Source: Gilliamella bombicola
Lineage (GTDB): Bacteria > Pseudomonadota > Gammaproteobacteria > Enterobacterales > Orbaceae
Direction: 5' to 3'
Assembly (NCBI RefSeq): GCF_900094945.1
Contig: NZ_FMAQ01000001.1
Span: 248,001 to 312,000, forward strand
Length of the DNA: 64,000 nucleotides
Shown: positions 4,538 through 17,050 of the stretch, piece by piece
How the letters are laid out: the number at the start of each line of letters is the position of its first letter
Position numbering within the stretch: the stretch's first letter is position 1
Program-made: the position numbers and the translations under genes
The notes under the pieces: model-generated
Seen by the model: the letters and a program-made list of their open reading frames with translations, nothing else
What the model was told of the DNA's origin: nothing
The model's database searches: none

Positions 4538-5440
4538 ATGAACGCTTATTATCAGCAAATAGCATTATTAGAACTAAAACTCAATAATGACTCCAATCGA
4601 TGCTTACCTGCACAATTAGCAACCCAAGCATTAATTAAAGAAATTTGTCTATCACCTAAGCCGGGATTAGTTGACATGAATAACAGTGGCGCCCACCGCG
4701 ACATGGATTTTCAAACCTTTGTCCACAGCATCAGCGCCATTAGTAACTGGTTTGAACGTTTTTATCAATATGGCAAAGCATCCGCTTTACACGATAACAA
4801 ACTATTTTTAGCAGGAATTAGACCGATTGGTATTGAGTGTGAACAAGCCATGTTCCAAGCCACCAACCAAGTCAACACCCATAAAGGCGGCATATTTGCT
4901 TTTGGATTGCTATTGGGTGCAATTGGACGATTAGAACAACTTGCCTTACCCACCCATGCACAAAGCATCTGTGACCAAGTTTCAGCCATTTGCCAAGGTA
5001 TAGTTCAAAGCGAACTACAGCAAAATAACCAAGCTAATTCGATAGGCGAAAAGCTATTTAAACGTCATCACTTATCTGGCGCACGTGGCGAAGCAGAATC
5101 AGGTTATGCAACTGTTCGAAACGTTTCACTACCTATCTATCAAGAAATGCAAAATCACGGTCACGATGAAGAAACTAGCCTATTGCAAGCAATGTTACAT
5201 TTGCTTGCATTTAATCAAGATACCAACTTAGTTGCACGGGGTGGACTTGATGGCTTGGCTTTTGTGCAAGAACAAGCGAAAAAACTCATCAAACAAGGTG
5301 GCATAATCAATCCCAAAGTACGGGAAAATTTGTATCAACTTGATACCGAATTAATAAAACGCAATTTAAGCCCCGGTGGTTCGGCTGATTTAATTGCGAT
5401 CACTTGGTTTTTGTCTCAATATAATAAATACCTTTTCTGA
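4538..5440 (+). CDS. citG: Triphosphoribosyl-dephospho-CoA synthase CitG
   Basis: A 300-aa enzyme that makes 2'-(5''-triphosphoribosyl)-3'-dephospho-CoA from ATP and dephospho-CoA, the precursor of the citrate lyase prosthetic group. The CitG/MdcB signature is clear: SPKPGLVDMNNSGAHRDMDF near residues 46-65, HKGGIFAFGLLLGA around 111-124, ARGGLDGLAFV, and a C-terminal NLSPGGSADLIAITWFL. AGGTAA lies 9 nt before the ATG. It is separated from the other cit genes by the adhesin-like island at 5.4-7.8 kb. Its last codons and stop lie inside a copy of the ~40-bp repeat (5424-5450), so the extreme C-terminus may have been rewritten by that element. Confidence 0.92.
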   Translation: MNAYYQQIALLELKLNNDSNRCLPAQLATQALIKEICLSPKPGLVDMNNSGAHRDMDFQTFVHSISAISNWFERFYQYGKASALHDNKLFLAGIRPIGIECEQAMFQATNQVNTHKGGIFAFGLLLGAIGRLEQLALPTHAQSICDQVSAICQGIVQSELQQNNQANSIGEKLFKRHHLSGARGEAESGYATVRNVSLPIYQEMQNHGHDEETSLLQAMLHLLAFNQDTNLVARGGLDGLAFVQEQAKKLIKQGGIINPKVRENLYQLDTELIKRNLSPGGSADLIAITWFLSQYNKYLF

Positions 5441-5923: not shown

Positions 5924-7549
5924 CTAAGGTGTGGTACAAACAGCAAGTTCTGTATAAGATTGGCTATGGTCATGGGCATAGACGTAGATTCTGCCATCGT
6001 ACGCACTGGCTCGGCTGACAGGGCCTGATATGTCGCCAGCCCAATAGTAGCTGACAACGAAGCCCGCATCAACGTAATTGTACATGAGTCCCCACTCCGT
6101 GAAAAAACCTGCACCAATGTGACGCTGGTAATAATTACCACCTGAAGATGGCGTAGTACCATCTATACCATGTATACATGAGAACCAACTATTATCTACA
6201 CCACACTTCGCGTTAGTCAAATCATTAACCTTAGGAAGTCGATAACCCAAACGATTACACCAAGATATTTGATTAGATAAAGTCTCCATTTTATTCCTTC
6301 TATTGATAAACCACTGCCTCAACACAAATCCGTACTTCACCTCATTACCGCGATTATCCCTACCCACCAACTCAAAGGTCTGTGGTAAAGAGGGTACGGT
6401 TAGTGAGCTAGGATTACTTGATTGTATTCGAGAGCTATCCGCCTTAGGACCAATGATCGTCACCCGCGTTACATTCTTGGATTTATCAGTAATCCAACTA
6501 TCGGCTTCTATGGGCTGTCCACCTGGCGGGATGAATGTGCCTGAATGTGGTCTTGTCCAACTCACTGTAGCCGTTATCCCACCATGAGAAGCAGAAGACC
6601 ATGTCAACTGACCTCCATCTACTCCCGCTATATCTAAATCAAAATACAAACCATCAGCAGCCGTAGTAGGAAAATTACGACTGTAAGATGACGAACTGGT
6701 TGATTGAACTAAAAAACCCTTCTTCCGGTTCCAAATGTTAGCCGGGCCAGCGTAATGAAGGTCATCGCCATAGGAATAAGAGCCAAATTTCAAATCCGGC
6801 CTTGCGTAACAAATTTTAGGCTGTTGTGAATTCAGGTTGATATAATACACCGCTGAACTACCTCTAAAAATCCTACTATTCGGCACGCCATACTGTGTAG
6901 CTAAGCTGCCTCCAGTACTACTTAATGTTACTTTATAAGGCGCATCACATATATCTAATGTGTCGCTACGACTTACTGTATGGCCATTCTTGTCAGTGAA
7001 ACTTACCGATATACTCCCCGTCGCCGTTATGCCATTTGCACCCTGTCCATCTCCATCATCATCTCCCCAATAATTATATCTAGTGACCAAATCACTTAGA
7101 CTCACTGAATTCACTGATGATGGGATTAACATATCTATATCTCCCAAAGTACTTCCTGCATAAGGTAATCTTATTGGATTTGCTGCACTTGATGTATTAG
7201 TTGATGGCCTGATAACCCGACCATCCTGCAACTTAATAGACAATAAACTATCTGTGGAAGTCGCTTTAATTCGCCCCCCATCAAACGTTAAATACGGTGC
7301 ACTACCTTCAATAACCTTTGATGTATAAGTCGATAACGCATGTGTACTAAACGAACACGGCAATAACAACAACCCCGCAAAGGCCAATGAAAACTTTGAT
7401 AAGGGGGATAAAAGCTTGAATCTCGATGATAACCCAGACGATGGCGCCAAGCTAGATGGTTTCGATAATGAGGATGAAGTCTGTTTCAGACTACGGTGAT
7501 ATTGAAAAAGACTTAGGGCGTAGGTTTGGTTCCATCCATGATAGCGCAT
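5924..7549 (-). CDS. Secreted adhesin-like protein (invasin/Rat-type C-terminal domain)
   Basis: A 541-aa protein. After a long polar, Ser-rich N-terminus (residues 1-~50) comes a signal-like segment FSLAFAGLLLLPCSFSTHALS, then IEGSAPYLTFDGG. A possible Ca-binding stretch WGDDDGDGQG lies near residue 165. The C-terminus (ISWCNRLGYRLPKVNDLTNA ... RRHIGAGFFTEWG-like) resembles the adhesion domain (DUF823) found at the ends of Salmonella RatA/RatB and invasin-like proteins; this family link is from memory. It is paralogous to 46601-48103, and the two share six cysteines in the same contexts. No beta-barrel, LPXTG or lipobox is visible, so surface anchoring is unknown. It interrupts the citrate region between citG and citB and is bracketed by R2 and R3. 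The true start could be internal. Confidence 0.7.
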   Translation of the reverse strand: MRYHGWNQTYALSLFQYHRSLKQTSSSLSKPSSLAPSSGLSSRFKLLSPLSKFSLAFAGLLLLPCSFSTHALSTYTSKVIEGSAPYLTFDGGRIKATSTDSLLSIKLQDGRVIRPSTNTSSAANPIRLPYAGSTLGDIDMLIPSSVNSVSLSDLVTRYNYWGDDDGDGQGANGITATGSISVSFTDKNGHTVSRSDTLDICDAPYKVTLSSTGGSLATQYGVPNSRIFRGSSAVYYINLNSQQPKICYARPDLKFGSYSYGDDLHYAGPANIWNRKKGFLVQSTSSSSYSRNFPTTAADGLYFDLDIAGVDGGQLTWSSASHGGITATVSWTRPHSGTFIPPGGQPIEADSWITDKSKNVTRVTIIGPKADSSRIQSSNPSSLTVPSLPQTFELVGRDNRGNEVKYGFVLRQWFINRRNKMETLSNQISWCNRLGYRLPKVNDLTNAKCGVDNSWFSCIHGIDGTTPSSGGNYYQRHIGAGFFTEWGLMYNYVDAGFVVSYYWAGDISGPVSRASAYDGRIYVYAHDHSQSYTELAVCTTP

Positions 7550-7849: not shown

Positions 7850-8551
7850 TTACTTCCCTAATCGTCTATATAATCTTTCTGGGCGTCCAATTTTTCCGTG
7901 ATTAAGTTCGACAGTTAATAATTTAATTTGGACACAATATTCTAAATATCGCCTAGCGGTTGTTTTGCTGATATTGGATTTTTCTACGATTTCGTCAACG
8001 GTGAGTGCTTTATCGGTTTGCATAAAGAGATCTTTTACTTTTTGTAATGTGATTTCTTCAATACCTTTTGAGCGGCGATTCATGTTGACAAAGTCTTTGG
8101 TCTGTAAATTAAAAAGTTCGTCAATTTTGCGTTGATTGACGTGTTTTTGTATGCTTTGTCGATATAAAAAGAGCTCAAAACGTTCAAGCGAGTGCTTTAG
8201 CCGTTGGTAAGATACGGGTTTAATTAAATAATCAAATGCACCATAACGGATCGCTTTGCTGCAAGTATCCATGTCGCTCGCTGCAGTAATAAAAATAACA
8301 TAACTGTTTAGGTGGTTATTGATTATGTATTCAAATAATTCTATTCCCTGTCCATCTGGTAAATAGTTATCAAGTAAAATTAAGGTTGGTTTTAGCTTTT
8401 CAACCATTATTTTGGCTTCTTCTAGATTTGATGCGATACCAATGACGTTGACTTTTGTGTCTTTTTGAATAAACTCTGCATTTAATTCGGCTAATATTGG
8501 CTCATCTTCTACAATCAGTACTTTGATGATGTTTTCTTGGAATTCGTTCAT
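7850..8551 (-). CDS. citB: Citrate two-component response regulator CitB/DpiA
   Basis: A 233-aa response regulator. The receiver domain (residues ~10-125) has the acidic pair VEDEP, the phospho-acceptor Asp in LILLDNYLPDG and the switch Lys in DYLIKPVS. The C-terminal ~70 residues form a helix-turn-helix (VDEIVEKSNISKTTARRYLE) typical of the CitB/DcuR group. It would activate citrate uptake and lyase genes when phosphorylated by CitA. The gene follows citA on the minus strand with a gap of 15 bp, and the pair diverges from citS, as expected for the citrate regulon. Length is normal. Confidence 0.9.
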   Translation of the reverse strand: MNEFQENIIKVLIVEDEPILAELNAEFIQKDTKVNVIGIASNLEEAKIMVEKLKPTLILLDNYLPDGQGIELFEYIINNHLNSYVIFITAASDMDTCSKAIRYGAFDYLIKPVSYQRLKHSLERFELFLYRQSIQKHVNQRKIDELFNLQTKDFVNMNRRSKGIEEITLQKVKDLFMQTDKALTVDEIVEKSNISKTTARRYLEYCVQIKLLTVELNHGKIGRPERLYRRLGK

Positions 8552-8566
8552 ACAATTACCTTTCGA

Positions 8567-10156
8567 TTATTTAGGAATAAATACAGAAAAAATTGTTCCA
8601 TATGGGGTATTATCTTCAAATGTAATATAACCATTGGCCTTTTTGATATAGGTTGAAACAAGGTGTAAACCAATGCCATGTTCTTTCCCTTCTTGAGATG
8701 TAACGCCGGGTTCAAAAATGGAATCACGAATATTTTCATCAATACCACAACCTTGATCACTGATCTCAAGTACAATTTCATCTGTTGCATCACTAAGATA
8801 TAAATAAATTGTTTTATTGCCATGATCATTTTTTAAACTGGCATTAAAGGCATTATCAAGCAAATTACCTAAAATTGACATAAATTCTGTTTCGGTGATA
8901 AGTGAAGGTAATGCACTTAATTGGCATGCAGGATCAAATAGTAGATTTAAACCTATTTCATGTGATTTTGCATATTTACCAATTAGTAATCCACATACAG
9001 CTGGTACCTTAAAATGTGCGGAAATAAAATCTAAATTACTTTGATTATCTGCAGAATGTAGCGCGATAAAAGATTGCGCTTCTTCATACCGTTTCATATA
9101 AATTAAACCAGATAACGTTGCCAACCAGTTTAAATGCTCATGCCTTAATGCTCGTAAATTATCAACATATTGTGTCACTTGTGTTAATTGCATACTTAAT
9201 ATATTAATATCATCAAAATTACGAAATGTAATGACCCAACCTTGAGTTTTATCATCAATGACCACACGAACTTTGCTAGCAATGACAATAATGTTGTTGA
9301 AATAACAAATATGATCATGTATGTCTTCAGTTTGATTGTCATTTTTATAAATAAAATCGCTTGATTTAACAAATGTCCTTAAATCATGTTCATGTAATTC
9401 ATCATCACTTATCTGAATATCTAACATTGTACGAGCAGATTGGTTAATATTGATAATTTTATAATTAAGATCAATTGCAATGACCCCTTCAAAAATCGAT
9501 TCCATGATCGACTTTTGGCTTTTCACCAATAATGCAATTGCTTTAGGCTCTAAATTAAACATCTGTTTTTTAATTGCTTTTGAAAAGCAATATGAAAAAA
9601 TAAATAATGCTAAAAACAATAAGGAGCAAAAAAAGATAAATGGTATAAATTGCTTTATATGCAATGCATAAATACCATCAATCATGTAACCGACCGAGAC
9701 TATGCCGATAATTTTACCATGATCGATAATTGGTGCTTTCCCCCTTAATGCTAAACCAAGAGAGCCTTCACTAATGGAGATGCTACTATTACCGTTAAGA
9801 ACCTCTTGATTATCGCCACCAACCATTGGCGAGTATAACGGGCTATTAGCCGTATGAAATAAACGATTAGCATTCGCATCGCCAATAACAATATAACTTG
9901 CGTCGCTTTGTTCAAATATCTCTGTGATTAAATTAGCAATTTTATTTGTATCTTTTTCTTTGACATATTCAATTAAACTTGGTAAAACAGATAACTCTTT
10001 TGCTTGAATTTGCGCCTTTTCGCCCAAACTTCTATATAAGTTCGTTTCGGTGGTGTTCCAAATATAGCTTTGTAACAGCGCAAGAACGATCAATGAAAAA
10101 AACAAAAGCGATAAAAAAAGTTTTGTTGCAAACGATACCTGTAATTTTTTTCGCAT
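8567..10156 (-). CDS. citA: Citrate sensor histidine kinase CitA/DpiB
   Basis: A 529-aa membrane kinase. TM1 is at residues ~10-30. A periplasmic PAS domain follows, with the citrate-contact pattern of CitA: NRLFH (Arg and His) and LRGKAPI (Arg and Lys). TM2 is near residues 175-195, then a cytoplasmic PAS domain, the phospho-acceptor His in RALRHEHLNWLATLSG, and an ATP-binding domain with NLLDNAFNAS, DQGCGID and GIGLHLV. The ligand residues support citrate or a close tricarboxylate rather than a C4-dicarboxylate. It is read upstream of citB and divergently from citS. Confidence 0.9.
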   Translation of the reverse strand: MRKKLQVSFATKLFLSLLFFSLIVLALLQSYIWNTTETNLYRSLGEKAQIQAKELSVLPSLIEYVKEKDTNKIANLITEIFEQSDASYIVIGDANANRLFHTANSPLYSPMVGGDNQEVLNGNSSISISEGSLGLALRGKAPIIDHGKIIGIVSVGYMIDGIYALHIKQFIPFIFFCSLLFLALFIFSYCFSKAIKKQMFNLEPKAIALLVKSQKSIMESIFEGVIAIDLNYKIININQSARTMLDIQISDDELHEHDLRTFVKSSDFIYKNDNQTEDIHDHICYFNNIIVIASKVRVVIDDKTQGWVITFRNFDDINILSMQLTQVTQYVDNLRALRHEHLNWLATLSGLIYMKRYEEAQSFIALHSADNQSNLDFISAHFKVPAVCGLLIGKYAKSHEIGLNLLFDPACQLSALPSLITETEFMSILGNLLDNAFNASLKNDHGNKTIYLYLSDATDEIVLEISDQGCGIDENIRDSIFEPGVTSQEGKEHGIGLHLVSTYIKKANGYITFEDNTPYGTIFSVFIPK

Positions 10157-10262: not shown

Positions 10263-10337
10263 AAAATTTCATTAATTTTTTGTAAAGATACGCACCATTA
10301 ATTTTGAATAAATCAAATCATTTTGGAGAAAAAAATA

Positions 10338-11723
10338 ATGGTGAATTTTAACTCATCTGAAAAGGACTATAATGGCAAAAAATCAATCAGTAAGCCCTTT
10401 GAACAAAAGCTAACTGGTTGGCCATATAATTGGTGGCGACTGATGGATAACTATAAAATCGGTGTTATCCCGCTTCCATTATTCATTATTGCTGGCATTC
10501 TTATTTTTGCTGAAGTGGCCGTAACAGGTAAATTACCTAGCGAAATCGTTGTAATGATAGTCGCTTGTGGTTTCTTTGGTTTCTTATGTGGTGAAATTGG
10601 TAAACGCTTACCAATTGTAGGTAAAATGGGCGCAGCAGCAATTTGTGCAACATTTATCCCGTCAGCACTTGTTTATTATGGTATTTTGCCAACACCAATT
10701 GTTGAAGCAACAACAAAATTCTATAAAGATACACATATTCTTTATTTATACATTTGTTGTATCATCGTTGGTAGTATCATGAACATGGATAAAAAAACAC
10801 TTATCCAAGGATTCTTAAAAATTTTCGGACCAATGGTGTGCGGTGAAATCGTTGGTATGTTAGTTGGTGTTGGCGTTGGTTATTTACTAGGTTTAACGCC
10901 GTTTGATACATTCTTTTTCTTAGTTCTACCTATTATGGCTGGTGGTGTTGGTGAAGGTGCTATTCCACTTTCAATCGGTTATGCGGCAATTTTACATATG
11001 AATCAAGGTGAAGCGTTAGGTCGTGTGTTACCAATCGTTATGTTAGGTGGTTTAACTGGTATTATTTGTGGTGGTATTCTTAACCGTATTGGTAAAGCTT
11101 ATCCACACTTAACAGGTAACGGTCGTTTATTACCAGCATCAGCTGACGATGAGGCGACAGATCAAAAAGCTACTAAAACTGAATCTGTCATTGATGTAAC
11201 AACATTTGCATCAGGTGTATTATTAGCTGCGATTCTTTATATGATTGGTATGATCGGTCATAAAGCAACCGGTATTCCTGCTCCAGTGGGTATGCTATTT
11301 GCAGCAGTTTTTGTTAAACTAATTTCAGGTGTTTCACCTAAAGTATTAAGTGGTTCGCAAGTTGTTTATAAATTTTTCCAAACGTCTGTTACCTATCCAA
11401 TTTTATTCGCAGTTGGTGTGGCAATCACGCCTTGGGATAAAATTATTTCTGCCTTTACGTTAACAAATTTGACTGTTATCGTTTGTACAGTGGTAAGTTT
11501 AGTAACAACTGGTTTCTTTGTTGCTAAAAGATTAGGTATGTATCCAGTTGATGCGGCGGTTATCTCTTGTTGTCAAAGTGGTCAAGGCGGAACAGGTGAC
11601 GTTGCTATCTTGACTGCAGCTGAACGTATGGAATTAATGCCATTTGCACAAATTGCAACGCGTATTGGTGGTGCAATCAATGTTTCAGTATCATTACTTA
11701 TTCTCGGCAATTTCTTAGTATAG
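10338..11723 (+). CDS. citS: Na+/citrate symporter CitS (2-hydroxycarboxylate transporter family)
   Basis: A 461-aa inner-membrane carrier of the 2HCT family. The two re-entrant-loop GG motifs are present: MAGGVGEGAIPLS (first half) and SGQGGTGDVAILTA near the C-terminus, the latter followed by the conserved Arg in TRIGGA. About 11 hydrophobic segments are seen. An in-frame TTG at 10323 is possible, but ATG 10338 is preferred because GGAG sits 9 nt upstream of it. It lies divergent from citAB and upstream of the lyase genes, so citrate is the likely substrate; malate carriers of the same family are the main alternative. Confidence 0.9.
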   Translation: MVNFNSSEKDYNGKKSISKPFEQKLTGWPYNWWRLMDNYKIGVIPLPLFIIAGILIFAEVAVTGKLPSEIVVMIVACGFFGFLCGEIGKRLPIVGKMGAAAICATFIPSALVYYGILPTPIVEATTKFYKDTHILYLYICCIIVGSIMNMDKKTLIQGFLKIFGPMVCGEIVGMLVGVGVGYLLGLTPFDTFFFLVLPIMAGGVGEGAIPLSIGYAAILHMNQGEALGRVLPIVMLGGLTGIICGGILNRIGKAYPHLTGNGRLLPASADDEATDQKATKTESVIDVTTFASGVLLAAILYMIGMIGHKATGIPAPVGMLFAAVFVKLISGVSPKVLSGSQVVYKFFQTSVTYPILFAVGVAITPWDKIISAFTLTNLTVIVCTVVSLVTTGFFVAKRLGMYPVDAAVISCCQSGQGGTGDVAILTAAERMELMPFAQIATRIGGAINVSVSLLILGNFLV

Positions 11724-11738
11724 ACTTTACACATTAAA

Positions 11739-11780
11739 GAACAACCTTAGTTTATACTAAGGTTGTTCATTTTTATTTTA
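11739..11780 (+). terminator. Rho-independent terminator after citS
   Basis: Perfect 12-bp stem GAACAACCTTAG/CTAAGGTTGTTC with a 6-nt loop, followed by ATTTTTATTTTA. It separates citS from the downstream lyase operon, or allows partial read-through into it. Confidence 0.85.
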
Positions 11781-11817: not shown

Positions 11818-12663
11818 ATGAAGCTTGTCAGTTATCTTGTCTCTGGTAGAGCAAGTTTTGGTCTTCTTACTCACAACGGTATTGTTGATTTAAGAAAAAA
11901 ATTAGACGATAAATACGTTGACTTAAAATCGCTACTTGCCGATGACGAAGGACTAGCTATTGCTAAAACCTATCTTGATGCCGCAAGTGACATTAACGAG
12001 CAAGACATTACTTACTTACCTGTAATCCCAAATCCAAACAAAATTTTATGTGTTGGTATGAATTATGCTGAAAAACGAGCAGAATTTAATGAAACCAGTT
12101 CAGCGCCAACTCTATTTATTCGCTTTCCTGATTCTCAAACAGGAAATAAGACTAATATTATAAAACCAGCTATCACTAATGAATTAGATTATGAAGGCGA
12201 GTTAGCCATTATCATTGGTAAAGCGGGTTTTCGTATTAGCCAAGAAGAAGCTTTATCATATGTGGCAGGATATAGTTGCTATATGGATGGCTCAATCCGC
12301 GATTGGCAGTATACTTGGTTTACCGCAGGTAAAAACTGGCCAAATACAGGTGCATTTGGTCCATGTTTAACTACCGCGGATGAAATTCCAGATCCTAAAG
12401 TTTTAACATTAGCAACTTATTTAAACGGTCAAGAAATGCAACATGATTCAATCAAAAATCTAGTGCATACTGTTCCCGAATTAATTGCTTATATTAGTAC
12501 CTTTACCCATTTGTCACCGGGCGATGTGATTTTGACCGGTTCACCTGGTGGTGTAGGTAAAAAACGTAATCCTCCCGTATTTATGAAAGATGGTGATACA
12601 ATAGAAGTTGAAATTTCTGGAATTGGCCGTTTAACTAATTATGTGGTAGCTGAAAAAAGGTAA
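11818..12663 (+). CDS. Fumarylacetoacetate hydrolase (FAH) family protein, candidate oxaloacetate decarboxylase
   Basis: A 281-aa FAH-fold protein with the metal-site and catalytic region typical of the superfamily: LDYEGELAIIIGK (acidic ligands), a distal SIRDWQYTWFTAGKNW with Asp, Lys and Trp, and LSPGDVILTGSPGGVG near the end. FAH members include acylpyruvases and the soluble oxaloacetate decarboxylases of the FAHD1/Cg1458 type. It lies between citS and citC, 4 bp before citC, where other organisms keep oxaloacetate decarboxylase genes, and no oadGAB is present in the window. Oxaloacetate decarboxylation is therefore a reasoned guess; a hydrolase of another acyl-pyruvate is the alternative. 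AAGGAG precedes the ATG. Confidence 0.8.
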   Translation: MKLVSYLVSGRASFGLLTHNGIVDLRKKLDDKYVDLKSLLADDEGLAIAKTYLDAASDINEQDITYLPVIPNPNKILCVGMNYAEKRAEFNETSSAPTLFIRFPDSQTGNKTNIIKPAITNELDYEGELAIIIGKAGFRISQEEALSYVAGYSCYMDGSIRDWQYTWFTAGKNWPNTGAFGPCLTTADEIPDPKVLTLATYLNGQEMQHDSIKNLVHTVPELIAYISTFTHLSPGDVILTGSPGGVGKKRNPPVFMKDGDTIEVEISGIGRLTNYVVAEKR

Positions 12664-12667
12664 ATTT

Positions 12668-13702
12668 ATGTACGATTCAGTTGATTATACCGTTGTCGAT
12701 ATTTCTAAATCAGATCAAAACTGTCAAGAAATTAAGCAATTATTATCACAATATGATCTTGATTTAGATTCACAAGTTACCATTTTCATGGTAGCTAAAA
12801 TGAGCAACAAAATTATTGCTTGTGCAGGAATTGATCGTAACATTATAAAATGTGTTGCTGTTGATTCTGAATATCGAGGTAATCAACTTAATCTAACATT
12901 AATGGATCACACCATAAAATATGCTAACGAAAATGGCTATTTTCATCTTTTTTTATATACAAAACCTGAAAATATAGATTTTTTTAAAGGATGTGGTTTT
13001 TATCCTCTTGTTGAAATAACAGATCTTGTTGTCCTAATGGAAAATAATCCTGTTGGCATAAAACACTACTGTAAACAACTGCACACACAGCAAAAAGACG
13101 GAAAAAAGATTGGTAGTATTGTGATGAATGCCAATCCTTTTACTAAAGGTCATCAATATCTTGTGCAATACGCTGCCAGTCAATGTGACTGGTTGCATGT
13201 TTTTGTCGTCAATGAAAATGCATCACTATTTTCATTTGATACACGCTTAAAGTTAGTTAAAGATGGCACGAAGCAGATAAACAATGTTACAGTGCATGCA
13301 AGTTCACCTTATATTATATCAAGAGCAACATTTCCTACTTATTTTCTAAAAGATAAGGCAAAAATAGATCGCGCTTATATGGGTATCGATCTCCTTATAT
13401 TCCGAAATTATATTGCGCCAACGCTTAATATAACCCACAGATTCGTTGGAACTGAGCCTTATGATGAAGTTACTAAGGCTTATAATGAAGCAATGCGTTA
13501 TTGGCTAGAGGATAATACTGTCAGCCATTATTCGCCTATTACCGTTGTTGAGGTTGAACGAAAAACTGAAGGAGATACTATCATATCAGCTTCACTGGTA
13601 AGAAAGTTATTGGCTTACAATCAATATGAAGAGATAAAAAAGTTAGTTCCATCAACAACATGGGATTACCTTTCAGCTAATTTAGATAAATTTAAAATTT
13701 AA
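12668..13702 (+). CDS. citC: [Citrate (pro-3S)-lyase] ligase CitC
   Basis: A 344-aa acetate:SH-citrate lyase ligase that acetylates the thiol of the CitD prosthetic group at the cost of ATP. The N-terminal ~120 residues form a GNAT-like domain. The adenylyltransferase half begins with IVMNANPFTKGHQYLV, containing the (H/T)xGH nucleotide motif, and ends with ISASLVRKLL. It is four bases after the FAH gene and 21 bp before citD, within one operon. Length matches the family. Confidence 0.93.
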   Translation: MYDSVDYTVVDISKSDQNCQEIKQLLSQYDLDLDSQVTIFMVAKMSNKIIACAGIDRNIIKCVAVDSEYRGNQLNLTLMDHTIKYANENGYFHLFLYTKPENIDFFKGCGFYPLVEITDLVVLMENNPVGIKHYCKQLHTQQKDGKKIGSIVMNANPFTKGHQYLVQYAASQCDWLHVFVVNENASLFSFDTRLKLVKDGTKQINNVTVHASSPYIISRATFPTYFLKDKAKIDRAYMGIDLLIFRNYIAPTLNITHRFVGTEPYDEVTKAYNEAMRYWLEDNTVSHYSPITVVEVERKTEGDTIISASLVRKLLAYNQYEEIKKLVPSTTWDYLSANLDKFKI

Positions 13703-13723: not shown

Positions 13724-14014
13724 ATGAAAATACAAAAAGAAGCCATGGCAGGGACTCTCGAATCAAGCGATTTGTTAGTCAAAGTCATGCCTAATACCGG
13801 GGTTGAAATTGTTATTAATAGCGATGTTAATAAACAATTCGGCGATCAAATTCGCGCTGTAGTTGAGCAAACATTACAAGATCTGAACGTAACAGATGGC
13901 TTAATTATTATTGATGATAAAGGCGCTCTTGATTGCGCTATCAAAGCAAGAATTCAATGTGCAGTATTACGTGGCGCAGAAGAAGAAAACTTAGATTGGA
14001 GTAAATTACTATGA
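13724..14014 (+). CDS. citD: Citrate lyase acyl carrier (gamma) subunit CitD
   Basis: A 96-aa acyl carrier protein. The conserved serine of AGTLESSD (residues ~10-17) receives the phosphoribosyl-dephospho-CoA made by CitG and attached by CitX. It overlaps the citE start by 4 bp (ATGA), indicating translational coupling. The size is that of other CitD proteins. Confidence 0.93.
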
Positions 14015-14898
14015 AAAAATTACGTCGAAGTATGTTATTTCTTCCAGGCGCAAACGCGGCAATGTTATCAACATCTTTTGTTTATAAGCCTGATTCAATT
14101 ATGTTTGACCTTGAAGATGCAGTTTCAATTAAAGAAAAAGACTCCGCACGCTTATTGGTAGCACAAACATTGCTCCTTCCTGTTTATAAAGAGCACGGAA
14201 TTGAAACAGTAGTGCGAATTAACGCCCTGAATACTCCATTTGGTTTAAAAGACCTTGAAGCAGTGGTAAGAGCTGGTGTTGATGTAGTACGTTTACCGAT
14301 GACTAACAGTGCTGAAGATATTCATGAGCTAGAGGCACACGTTGCAAGAATTGAAAAAGAGTGTGGCCGTGAAGTAGGTAGTACTAAATTAATGGCCGCA
14401 ATTGAATCCGCTCAAGGCGTTGTTAATGCCGTTTCTATTGCTCAATCTTCCCCACGTTTAATTGGTATTGCACTAGCTGCATTTGACTATCTTGTTGATA
14501 TGCAAACTGAACGTGGCGATGGTACCGAGTTATTTTATGCTCGCTGCGCTGTTTTACATGCTGCGCGTGTAGCTGGCATTGATGCCTTCGATGTGGTGTA
14601 TTCAAATGTTAATGATGATGAAGGTTTCTTAAAAGAAGTTAGCCTAATCAAAAAACTTGGTTATAACGGTAAATCACTTATCAATCCACGACAAATTGAA
14701 CTGTTACACAATGCTTATGCGCCAACAGCCGCTGAAGTTGAAAATGCCCAAAAAGTGGTTGAAGCAGCTGAAGAAGGTGAAAGAAAAGGCCTTGGCGTGA
14801 TTTCTCTAAATGGCAAAATGATTGATGCACCGATTATTGCTCGTGCTAGAAAAGTAATTGAGTTAGCAAAATATTCCGGTGTACGTAAAGAAATTTGA
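14011..14898 (+). CDS. citE: Citrate lyase beta subunit (citryl-ACP lyase) CitE
   Basis: A 295-aa HpcH/HpaI-type TIM barrel that cleaves citryl-ACP to acetyl-ACP and oxaloacetate. It starts [15 protein letters not shown] and carries the metal-binding acidic residues in MFDLEDAV, the Glu of MAAIESA, and the Asp in [14 protein letters not shown]. It overlaps citD by 4 bp and ends 10 bp before the preferred citF start. Confidence 0.94.
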
Positions 14899-14908
14899 TA
14901 GGATTAAA

Positions 14909-16438
14909 ATGATGACTTCTATAAATAAAAAAATTGATGATTTGCTTAAACAGCATCCAGATCTCAAAAATATCACGCCATTTATTGACGCTAACGCTAC
15001 GACTCCTTATTTAAAAGATGAGTCTAAATATACGCGTAAATTGTGTGACTCTATCGAACAAGCAATCCATAAATGTGAATTACGTGATGGTATGACTATT
15101 TCTTTCCATCATGCATTCCGTGAAGGCGATAAAGTTATCAACAAAGTAGTTGAAACGATTAGCAAATTAGGAATTAAAAACCTAACATTGGCATCAAGTT
15201 CCCTATTAAGTTGTAACTCAGCACTTATTCCTCATATTGAATCTGGTGTGATCACTAAAATCTATACATCAGGTTTACGTGGTAAATTGGCTGATGCGAT
15301 TTCACACGGTTTAATGGATAATCCTGTTCATATCCATTCTCATGGTGGACGTGTAAAACTTATTCAAAGCGGTGAAATTAATATTGATATCGCATTTTTA
15401 GCGGTTTCAACTGCCGATGAGCAAGGTAACGCGAATGGTGTATCAGGTAAATCACAATGTGGTGCACTTGGTTATGCTATGGTTGATGCGCAATTTGCGA
15501 AGAAAGTAGTATTACTTACTGAAGATATCGTTGGTTACCCTAACCATCCAGCAAGTATCCGTCAAGATCAAGTCGACTATATTGTGAAAGTTGATGAGGT
15601 TGGCGATCCAACTAAAATTAGTGTCGGTGCTGCTCGTATTACTAGTAACCCTCGTGAACTGATGATTGCACGTTATGCAGCAGATGTTATTGAGTATTCT
15701 GGTTATTTTAAAGATGGTTTTTCTATTCAAACCGGTTCTGGTGCGTCATCAACTGCAGCAACGCGTTTCCTTGAAAATCGTATGCGCGCAAAAAATATTA
15801 CGGCATCATTTGCATTAGGTGGTATTACCGCAAGTATTGTTGATCTTCATGAAAAAGGTTTGGTTAAACGCTTATTAGATACTCAAAGCTTTGATGGCAC
15901 CGCCGGACAATCTTTAGGTAAAAATAAAGATCATATTGAAGTGTCAACCAATGTTTATGCAAACCCTGCATCAAAAGGTGCAAGTGTTGATGAACTTGAT
16001 ATCGTTATTTTAAGTGCCTTAGAAATTGACCTTGATTACAATGTGAATGTATTAACGGGTTCTGATGGCGTTATGCGTGGTGCATCTGGTGGTCACTGTG
16101 ATACTGCCGCTGGTGCAAATTTAACCATTATTGTTGCTCCATTAATCCGTAGCCGAATCCCTACAGTGATTAAGAAAGTCACAACGGTTGTTACACCAGG
16201 TGAAAGTGTCGATGTTCTTGTTACTGACCATGGTATAGCAGTTAATCCTGCTCGTCCTGAAATTGCAGAGCGACTAAAAGCAGCTAATTTGCCAGTCATG
16301 AGCATTGAAGAACTATATCAACGTGCTGTTTCGTTAACTGGAGAACCAAAACCAATCGAATTTAACGATAAAATCGTTGGTGTTGTCCATTTCCGTGATG
16401 GCTCAATCATTGATGTGGTTCGTCAAGTTAAAGACTAA
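14909..16438 (+). CDS. citF: Citrate lyase alpha subunit (citrate:acetyl-ACP transferase) CitF
   Basis: A 509-aa class-II CoA-transferase-like subunit that swaps acetyl for citryl on CitD. Family landmarks include GMTISFHHAFREGD near the start, the Gly-rich QTGSGASSTAATRFL, and GASGGHCDTAAGANL. A GTG at 14879 keeps the frame open, but ATG 14909 is preferred: AGGA lies 6 nt upstream and the N-terminus then resembles known CitF. It is the last gene before a strong terminator. Confidence 0.93.
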   Translation: MMTSINKKIDDLLKQHPDLKNITPFIDANATTPYLKDESKYTRKLCDSIEQAIHKCELRDGMTISFHHAFREGDKVINKVVETISKLGIKNLTLASSSLLSCNSALIPHIESGVITKIYTSGLRGKLADAISHGLMDNPVHIHSHGGRVKLIQSGEINIDIAFLAVSTADEQGNANGVSGKSQCGALGYAMVDAQFAKKVVLLTEDIVGYPNHPASIRQDQVDYIVKVDEVGDPTKISVGAARITSNPRELMIARYAADVIEYSGYFKDGFSIQTGSGASSTAATRFLENRMRAKNITASFALGGITASIVDLHEKGLVKRLLDTQSFDGTAGQSLGKNKDHIEVSTNVYANPASKGASVDELDIVILSALEIDLDYNVNVLTGSDGVMRGASGGHCDTAAGANLTIIVAPLIRSRIPTVIKKVTTVVTPGESVDVLVTDHGIAVNPARPEIAERLKAANLPVMSIEELYQRAVSLTGEPKPIEFNDKIVGVVHFRDGSIIDVVRQVKD

Positions 16439-16448
16439 TTAACCACAG

Positions 16449-16490
16449 ATAGCATGACATTATCAGATGTCATGCTATTTATATCTTTTA
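16449..16490 (+). terminator. Terminator after citF
   Basis: An 11-bp perfect stem ATAGCATGACA/TGTCATGCTAT with an 8-nt loop, then TTTATATCTTTTA. It lies before the preferred citX ATG (16493), so citX may be expressed at a reduced level by read-through or from a weak promoter of its own. Confidence 0.8.
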
Positions 16491-16492
16491 CT

Positions 16493-17050
16493 ATGAATAA
16501 TATATTAATAAAATTCGATGATGGTACGCCAATTACACTTGAACAGATGCTATTGGCTAAAGAAAGACGGGTGCAAAACCAACAAAATGCAATAAATCTT
16601 TACCATTATCCGCTTATTTCGCTAAGTTTAGTTATCCCCGGTCCAATAAAAAATAGTAGTGGTGCAAATCGGTTATTTAAAGAAGCAATCACCGCTATAC
16701 ACAAAGCCTTATCAAAAAATGCAATTCCATTAGTACATGAATCTCATTTTCATAATATCACTGGCTATGAAGCAATTATTTCAGCAAAATGCTCTGCCGA
16801 TACACTAAAACAATGCTGTATTGATATAGAAGACAACCATCCGTTAGGTCGACTATGGGATATTGATGTGATTGATCCAATTACACAACAAAGTATTTCA
16901 CGCGCTAAATTTGATCATCCATCAAGACAATGTTTAATCTGCCAAGATATCGCAAAAATATGTAGTCGAAGTAAAAAACATACTATCGATGAGATTTTTT
17001 CTGCCATTGAAAATAAGATGAAAGACTATTTTGGCGTATCAGTACGTTAA
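16493..17050 (+). CDS. citX: Apo-citrate lyase phosphoribosyl-dephospho-CoA transferase CitX
   Basis: A 185-aa enzyme that transfers the prosthetic group precursor from CitG to apo-CitD. The motifs ISLSLVIPGPIK, NHPLGRLWDIDVID and the C-terminal Cys cluster RQCLICQDIAKICSRSKKH are those of CitX. ATG 16493 is preferred over 16454 because the latter sits inside the citF terminator and the shorter product matches the ~183-aa family length. No good ribosome site is visible. Here citX and citG are separate genes about 11 kb apart, not a citXG fusion. Confidence 0.88.
   Translation: MNNILIKFDDGTPITLEQMLLAKERRVQNQQNAINLYHYPLISLSLVIPGPIKNSSGANRLFKEAITAIHKALSKNAIPLVHESHFHNITGYEAIISAKCSADTLKQCCIDIEDNHPLGRLWDIDVIDPITQQSISRAKFDHPSRQCLICQDIAKICSRSKKHTIDEIFSAIENKMKDYFGVSVR

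Follow-up and report, generated by a model that had tools for sequence, protein, structure and literature searches.

One lineage of citrate-lyase operons consistently includes a gene of the FAH superfamily, whose product probably handles the oxaloacetate (OAA) that citrate lyase makes. OAA is very likely its substrate; for decarboxylation as its main reaction we would give roughly even odds. A further-reaching reading, to which we assign a probability of about 0.4, is that these loci form an undescribed class of citrate operon in which an FAH protein with a KxxE/R signature, its catalytic His replaced by Lys, would carry out soluble, metal-dependent OAA decarboxylation. The class would have arisen apart from CitM and the Na+ pump, and would have relatives in tartrate-dehydratase operons. 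Full-text searches of open-licence PMC papers for FAH in citrate operons gave none whose listed title or opening abstract lines deal with a bacterial citrate operon. If the decarboxylase reading is right, a missing step of citrate fermentation is filled in Gilliamella of the bee gut as well as in many Enterobacterales, citrate operons become sortable by the fate of OAA, and the K86/R102 signature offers a way to probe how FAH proteins choose between tautomerising, decarboxylating and hydrolysing. If the enzyme were merely a tautomerase, it would still be a pathway-bound one.

In the window (the whole 64-kb stretch of Gilliamella bombicola DNA that was analysed), the gene order is 2HCT transporter, FAH, citC, citD, citE, citF, citX (Table 1), with DpiB/DpiA-type regulator genes lying upstream and divergent from the cit cluster. 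The earlier note had placed an FAH-superfamily gene between 'citS' and citC, 4 bp before the latter, and both the open reading frame and Pfam agree: the frame has an ATG start with 'aaggag' upstream of it, and the protein contains an FAA_hydrolase domain (PF01557; 198 bits, E 1.5e-58, cut-off 23.9). Among the matches listed, the closest named FAH loci are four Gilliamella records with 88-93% FAH identity. The transporter falls below the cut-offs of both NCBIfam models, TIGR00783 (ccs; 413 bits against 549) and the CitS equivalog (212 against 600), so 'citS' is an unsafe name and Na+ coupling only putative; its frame begins with TTG in the ORF list, and an internal ATG is possibly the true start. 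A 541-aa ORF (5924-7549) between citG and the response-regulator gene has no Pfam match; several relatives, L037, L038 and L043 among them, have citG near dpiA.

Table 1. Features of the citrate-lyase locus in the window (window coordinates).
Feature	Position	Strand	Remarks
citG, triphosphoribosyl-dephospho-CoA synthase	4538..5440	+	TIGR03125 above cut-off; away from main cluster
DpiA/CitB-type response regulator	7850..8551	-	Response_reg + HTH_64; NCBIfam DpiA 213 bits, below cut-off of 264
DpiB/CitA-type sensor kinase	8567..10156	-	NCBIfam DpiB 485 bits, below cut-off of 656
2HCT-family transporter ('citS')	10323..11723	+	PF03390, E 4.7e-138
Terminator-like hairpin	11739..11768	+	13-pair stem, T-rich tail; between citS and FAH
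FAH gene, KxxE-type FAH-fold protein	11818..12663	+	281 aa; proposed OAA-handling enzyme
Codon of K86 (FAHD1 H30 position)	12073..12075	+	K in 51/58 rows of A2, 50/51 of A3
Codon of R102 (FAHD1 K47 position)	12121..12123	+	R in 52/58 rows of A2, 51/51 of A3
citC, citrate lyase ligase	12668..13702	+	TIGR00124 above cut-off
citD, acyl carrier protein	13724..14014	+	TIGR01608 above cut-off
citE, beta subunit	14011..14898	+	TIGR01588 above cut-off
citF, alpha subunit	14879..16438	+	TIGR01584 above cut-off
citX, holo-ACP synthase	16454..17050	+	TIGR03124 above cut-off

Since the terminator-like hairpin parts the transporter gene from FAH, we group FAH with citCDEFX. An alignment of 25 distinct rows, representing 26 of the 30 host-family loci, has standard pairs in 98.5% of 271 pair cells, and just one pair has changed on both of its sides, so that the hairpin is conserved with little covariation. 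The same gap in many enterobacterial loci is just ~20-30 bp and holds no hairpin; the coupling of FAH to the transporter thus differs between these and the Gilliamella-family loci.

Within the host family, 39 of 44 genomes carry citF, and a cit-type FAH (at least 64% identity) accompanies it in 38 of the 39, the exception (G034) being 86% complete; none of the five citF-less genomes, two of them less than 75% complete, has one. The order citS-FAH-citC-citD recurs in all 30 host-family loci fetched, the window's own included. Across the host order, citF is present in 66 of 394 genomes. Outside the host family our citF survey covered 34 genomes with 38 loci, every one of which was fetched: 10 contain FAH, 25 contain CitT and 4 contain genes of the Na+-pump OAA decarboxylase (OAD). 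All 10 loci with FAH also carry a gene of the 2HCT or PrpF type, and OAD genes are absent from them, while the 28 FAH-less loci include 23 with CitT and 4 with OAD genes. FAH and CitT occur together in two of the 38 loci, and one locus at a contig end lacks FAH, OAD and CitT alike. The co-occurrence survey proposed in the earlier note therefore yielded a near-perfect linkage of FAH to its operon lineage, but no significant exclusion between FAH and OAD: OAD genes are found in 0 of 10 FAH loci versus 4 of 28 FAH-less ones (p 0.56), and Tolumonas has both. Setting FAH-or-OAD against CitT in the 38 loci gives p 4e-7 as a simple count ignoring kinship, a value we do not lean on because the CitF tree offers one independent pair. 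Three CitT loci of family code f3 (L060, L064 and L065) have a malic-enzyme match just past citT, a possible OAA/malate route, and these matches keep the loci from falling strictly into three kinds. OAD_beta is found elsewhere in the genome in 9 of 12 CitT-type genomes of the same family.

On the CitF tree of 97 rows, one clade of 67 has FAH in all, and the other 30 rows lack it except Tolumonas (L153); the FAH label needs one change. Many of the 67 clade rows were fetched via FAH, and an FAH-blind set from outside the host family falls in the clade in 10 of 10 cases. With one change, the tight linkage amounts to a single evolutionary event, and co-inheritance alone could then give it, FAH being a passenger of the operon with no citrate role. 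We regard this as very improbable, given how FAH has been kept in the citF-bearing genomes of the host family and given its relatives elsewhere. An alignment (A1) of 19 rows with 53-74% identity to the window protein has invariant active-site residues, and a scan for relatives with it, at one genome per species, gave at least 567 relatives, of which we kept the best 80. Citrate-lyase loci, defined by at least two of citC, D, E and F within 9 kb, make up 46 of these best 80; citC follows FAH in 45 of them, a 2HCT gene is present in 40 and a PrpF-type gene in 5, and the one PrpF representative scanned lies above the cut-off of a 4-oxalomesaconate tautomerase model. OAD genes occur in one of the 46 (L153 of Tolumonas osonensis, a 2HCT gene followed by oadA-oadB-FAH) and a malic enzyme is nearby in one (Martelella, L157). 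Other relatives adjoin tartrate dehydratase or OAD genes, again at odds with a mere passenger.

We looked for exits for OAA in G000, the genome that contains the window (2.32 Mb, 100% complete). As the earlier note had claimed, the cluster holds no oad or malic-enzyme-type decarboxylase: references for oadA, oadB, malic enzyme and citT had no tblastn match within the 64-kb window, the E. coli CitT search being made in the window only and at E 1e-5. The check for oadGAB elsewhere came out the same way, with no match anywhere in G000 to the profiles OAD_beta (PF03977) and PYC_OADA (PF02436), nor to those of the malic domain (PF00390) and PEPCK_ATP (PF01293); as a positive control, each of the four profiles was run on 14 other genomes and matched in between 2 and 13 of them. 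PEP-mutase-type OAD, the OAD side activity of RraA-type proteins, and Ldh_2-type and quinone-linked malate dehydrogenases lie outside the gap so defined. The sole Ldh_1_N (PF00056) gene, considered as a malate dehydrogenase, is an L-lactate dehydrogenase above NCBIfam cut-offs, and a separate YcgM/OAT1 ortholog is ruled out, there being just one PF01557 match genome-wide. Because the searched routes are without a match, G000 must have some other outlet for the OAA that citrate lyase releases, and the operon offers FAH as the candidate. A PEP carboxylase match is present, so citrate lyase is not required as the sole source of OAA; four citF-bearing genomes of the host family (G001, G002, G028 and G029) have no PEP carboxylase match, and there citrate lyase may supply it. 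Sibling genomes of the host family have a malic-domain match in 11 of 17 searched, a full PEPCK in 1 of 17 (G028) and OAD_beta in 1 of 16 (G013). In FAH-bearing genomes outside the family, malic-enzyme and PEPCK matches were found in all seven searched and OAD_beta somewhere in two. These matches count against the decarboxylase reading.

Published work on the genus describes citrate lyase in all of 95 Gilliamella genomes and reports OAA-to-fumarate genes in none (PMC11325843); in our own survey two genomes of that genus group, both complete (G006 and G011), lack citF. In bees colonised by Gilliamella, gut citrate is reported to be depleted while acetate, lactate and pyruvate rise, lactate and pyruvate being handed on to Snodgrassella (PMC11343714). 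Citrate is described as consumed by several bee-gut members (PMC5726620), and some Orbaceae isolates with citrate lyase genes are reported to give no citrate reaction in a kit (PMC11434166), a point against the decarboxylase reading.

The AlphaFold2 model of the window protein has a mean pLDDT of 94.2, and its best Foldseek matches are 6j57 (E 4e-31) and YisK, with Cg1458 (4dbh, E 2e-23) and FAHD1 lower. In an alignment of 58 chosen rows (A2), E89, E126, E128, D157, R161 and Q164 do not vary, and 57 of the rows have K172; a further alignment (A3) has 51 rows. E126, E128 and D157 match the metal ligands E, E and D of the FAH superfamily, and Q164 and K172 the Gln and Lys of the FAHD OAA site (Q109 and K123). 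The His-Glu dyad (FAHD1 H30/E33) is broken, E89 being kept and His replaced by K86. His stands at the H30 position in seven A2 rows (E. coli YcgM, five Orbaceae paralogs and L177); at the K47 position 52 rows have Arg and six have Lys, the six being the His rows minus L177. Both His and Lys are present in all seven sequences of solved structure that were aligned across the two positions (the second domain of 1gtt, 6j57, YisK 8sky, YcgM 1nr9, 3s52, 3v77 and mouse FAHD1 6sbi). As aligned, then, the KxxE/R subfamily keeps most OAA-site residues and has exchanged the His of the dyad and the Lys of the relay. With the dyad His gone, we file the protein as an FAH-superfamily member and not as FAHD1/YcgM-type, though it may still work alike. 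To our knowledge, no activity is known for any KxxE member.

In FAHD1, H30 and E33 are described as holding water, and K123 and Q109 as acting in tautomerisation and decarboxylation (PMC7115867, PMC8398924); a D102-K47-K123 proton relay has been proposed (PMC7115867; PMC8398924 has K43 for K47). H30, E33, D102 and R106 are listed as critical for the FAHD1 decarboxylase (PMC4534308), so that Lys at the H30 position counts against decarboxylation. As a decarboxylase, a soluble, divalent-metal-dependent FAH enzyme would take over OAA from citrate lyase and convert it to pyruvate and CO2, and citrate would go to acetate and pyruvate without a Na+ pump. Judging from the residues, OAA would chelate the metal bound by E126, E128 and D157, while Q164 and K172 would orient it and move protons, as proposed for Q109 and K123 of FAHD1. 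K86 would replace the water-activating His with loss of hydrolase chemistry, and may bind the C4 carboxylate or serve as an acid/base at C3. The energetics drawn in the earlier note, with no Na+ gradient made, also rest on a Na+-coupled CitS, itself putative. Cg1458 is described as a soluble OAA decarboxylase of the same fold (PMC4534308), and a high Km is reported for the soluble OAD of C. glutamicum (PMC8100219).

The idea put forward in the earlier note, that FAH is the OAA decarboxylase of citrate fermentation, draws support from the searched routes that have no match in G000, from the operon linkage, from the OAA-site residues and from citrate depletion in bees (PMC11343714); it is weakened by the two active-site substitutions and by the measured FAHD proteins, which are mainly tautomerases. 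Ten of these have been measured, all are reported to be OAA tautomerases, and their decarboxylase activity is ~2x10^4-fold lower on average; YisK has a tautomerase kcat of 237 per second and a decarboxylase activity of 0.064 U/mg, a ~6x10^3-fold gap (PMC10825186). A review of FAHD1 disputes that its decarboxylase activity is minor (PMC12176266). YisK is nearer to the window protein (144 bits) than is Cg1458 (97 bits). The protein could be a dedicated OAA keto-enol tautomerase that keeps keto-OAA available to whichever enzyme follows (OAD, aspartate aminotransferase, MDH or citrate synthase), CO2 being retained.

Several gene neighbourhoods would be accounted for by such a tautomerase. Besides the oadA-oadB-FAH of Tolumonas osonensis, there are two arrangements in Formivibrio citricus, oadB-FAH-oadA in L168 and citrate synthase-oadA-FAH in L162; malic enzyme-FAH-citCDEFXG is found in Azospirillum thermophilum, and in Oleisolibacter FAH directly follows a malic enzyme near a contig end. 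A candidate OadG in L168 (9594-9962) has no NCBIfam or Pfam match. The Tolumonas and Formivibrio arrangements contradict FAH as a general replacement for the Na+ pump, as had been suggested in the earlier note. A tautomerase would explain these and the maeB-FAH pairs, as well as ttdAB-FAH, where the dehydratase should yield enol-OAA. The co-occurrence of FAH and OAD favours tautomerisation but is not decisive, since Enterococcus faecalis is described with a membrane OAD and soluble CitM in one locus (PMC6193673). Weighing against a tautomerase, G000 would be left without an OAA sink among those searched, although transamination remains; citrate lyase would be expected to release keto-OAA in any case; a role in protecting SDH misfits a genus reported to be without most TCA genes (PMC11325843); and both signature residues are unlike those of the three aligned tautomerases YcgM, YisK and FAHD1. 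A decarboxylase is favoured by the gap seen across G000 and by the way citrate loci sort. We therefore prefer, at even odds overall, a soluble OAA decarboxylase to a dedicated tautomerase, which we consider a real but lesser possibility, and leave a small share to all else.

Most of that share goes to an enzyme that hydrolyses or cleaves some other 2-oxo acid (an acylpyruvate, a diketo sugar acid or similar) as a side-product or repair enzyme, which we think unlikely. The best NCBIfam match of FAH is a diketo-deoxyrhamnonate hydrolase model, at 158 bits against a cut-off of 500. The 34 non-citrate loci among the best 80 lie by ttdAB-like (4), LeuCD-like (3) or DapA-like genes (6) or by none of these (21); three of the 21 (L122, L123 and L154) are near citrate transporter or regulator genes and L162 is near oadA, and the remaining 17, such as L180 with its M55 D-aminopeptidase gene, have no recognised OAA context. 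Hydrolysis is disfavoured because the dyad's water-activating His has become Lys, and another substrate by the tight linkage of FAH to one citrate-lyase lineage.

Compared with known proteins, the window protein is like Cg1458/Odx of Corynebacterium glutamicum in its FAH fold and essential Gln (Q109 of FAHD1, here Q164), whose mutation in Cg1458 is reported to have almost abolished activity (PMC8398924), but the sequence match is weaker than that to YisK or HpcE. The OAT1 tautomerases (YcgM, YisK, FAHD1 and FAHD2) share the fold, the metal ligands and the site Gln and Lys, YcgM being 31% identical and YisK among the top structural matches; the window subfamily differs in having K86 and R102 at the H30 and K47 positions and in being tied to the citrate-lyase operon. 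Compared with known operons, the type I cluster of lactic acid bacteria would share its role and the 2HCT transporter (PMC6193673). Its soluble CitM, however, is of the malic-enzyme family, unrelated to FAH and with no PF00390 counterpart in G000, and its regulator is different. The type II cluster of Klebsiella and Vibrio, with membrane OAD, is described as sharing citAB, the transporter and the citrate lyase genes (PMC6193673); it has oad, whereas the window locus has FAH and oad is absent from window and genome, Tolumonas (L153) having both. The citCDEFXG-citT cluster of E. coli shares the citrate lyase genes and dpiAB but has the CitT antiporter and neither FAH nor OAD. The FAH-bearing cluster is thus of neither type I, type II nor the E. 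coli CitT type. The earlier note's statement that known clusters carry oadGAB or a malic-type enzyme is right in that such types exist, but the E. coli cluster has neither. A Klebsiella aerogenes record has citAB-cimH-FAH-citCDEF.

FAH proteins with Lys at the dyad position (K-type) also adjoin ttdA/ttdB-like genes and an MFS-like ORF, in L047, L048, L148, L173, L176 and L179. The ttd-like pair of L179 scores above tartrate-dehydratase cut-offs, the other five are 59-100% identical to it, and the ttdA match of L148 is split in two pieces. These neighbourhoods suggest that the same enzyme step may serve in tartrate use. In the FAH tree, the two copies from Formivibrio cluster with those from the ttd side, away from the citrate copies; its root is unreliable because the outgroup branches are very long, and we use it for grouping only.

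Other K-type FAH genes are found near DapA-like and MFS transporter genes (L115, L128, L155, L161, L167 and L168, the pair of L168 having been scanned), several of them with a LacI-like ORF recognised by eye. In L180 and L182 the FAH gene adjoins an M55 D-aminopeptidase gene (scanned in L180) and ABC-transporter-like ORFs, with no visible link to OAA. In L033, L144 and L159 its neighbours are an MFS transporter gene and a pair of LeuCD-like hydro-lyase genes. L033 is the Klebsiella pneumoniae IncHI1B plasmid NZ_MZ690485.1, where a LysR regulator is annotated, and 18 of the 20 plasmid matches listed are K. pneumoniae copies, at 60.3% identity.
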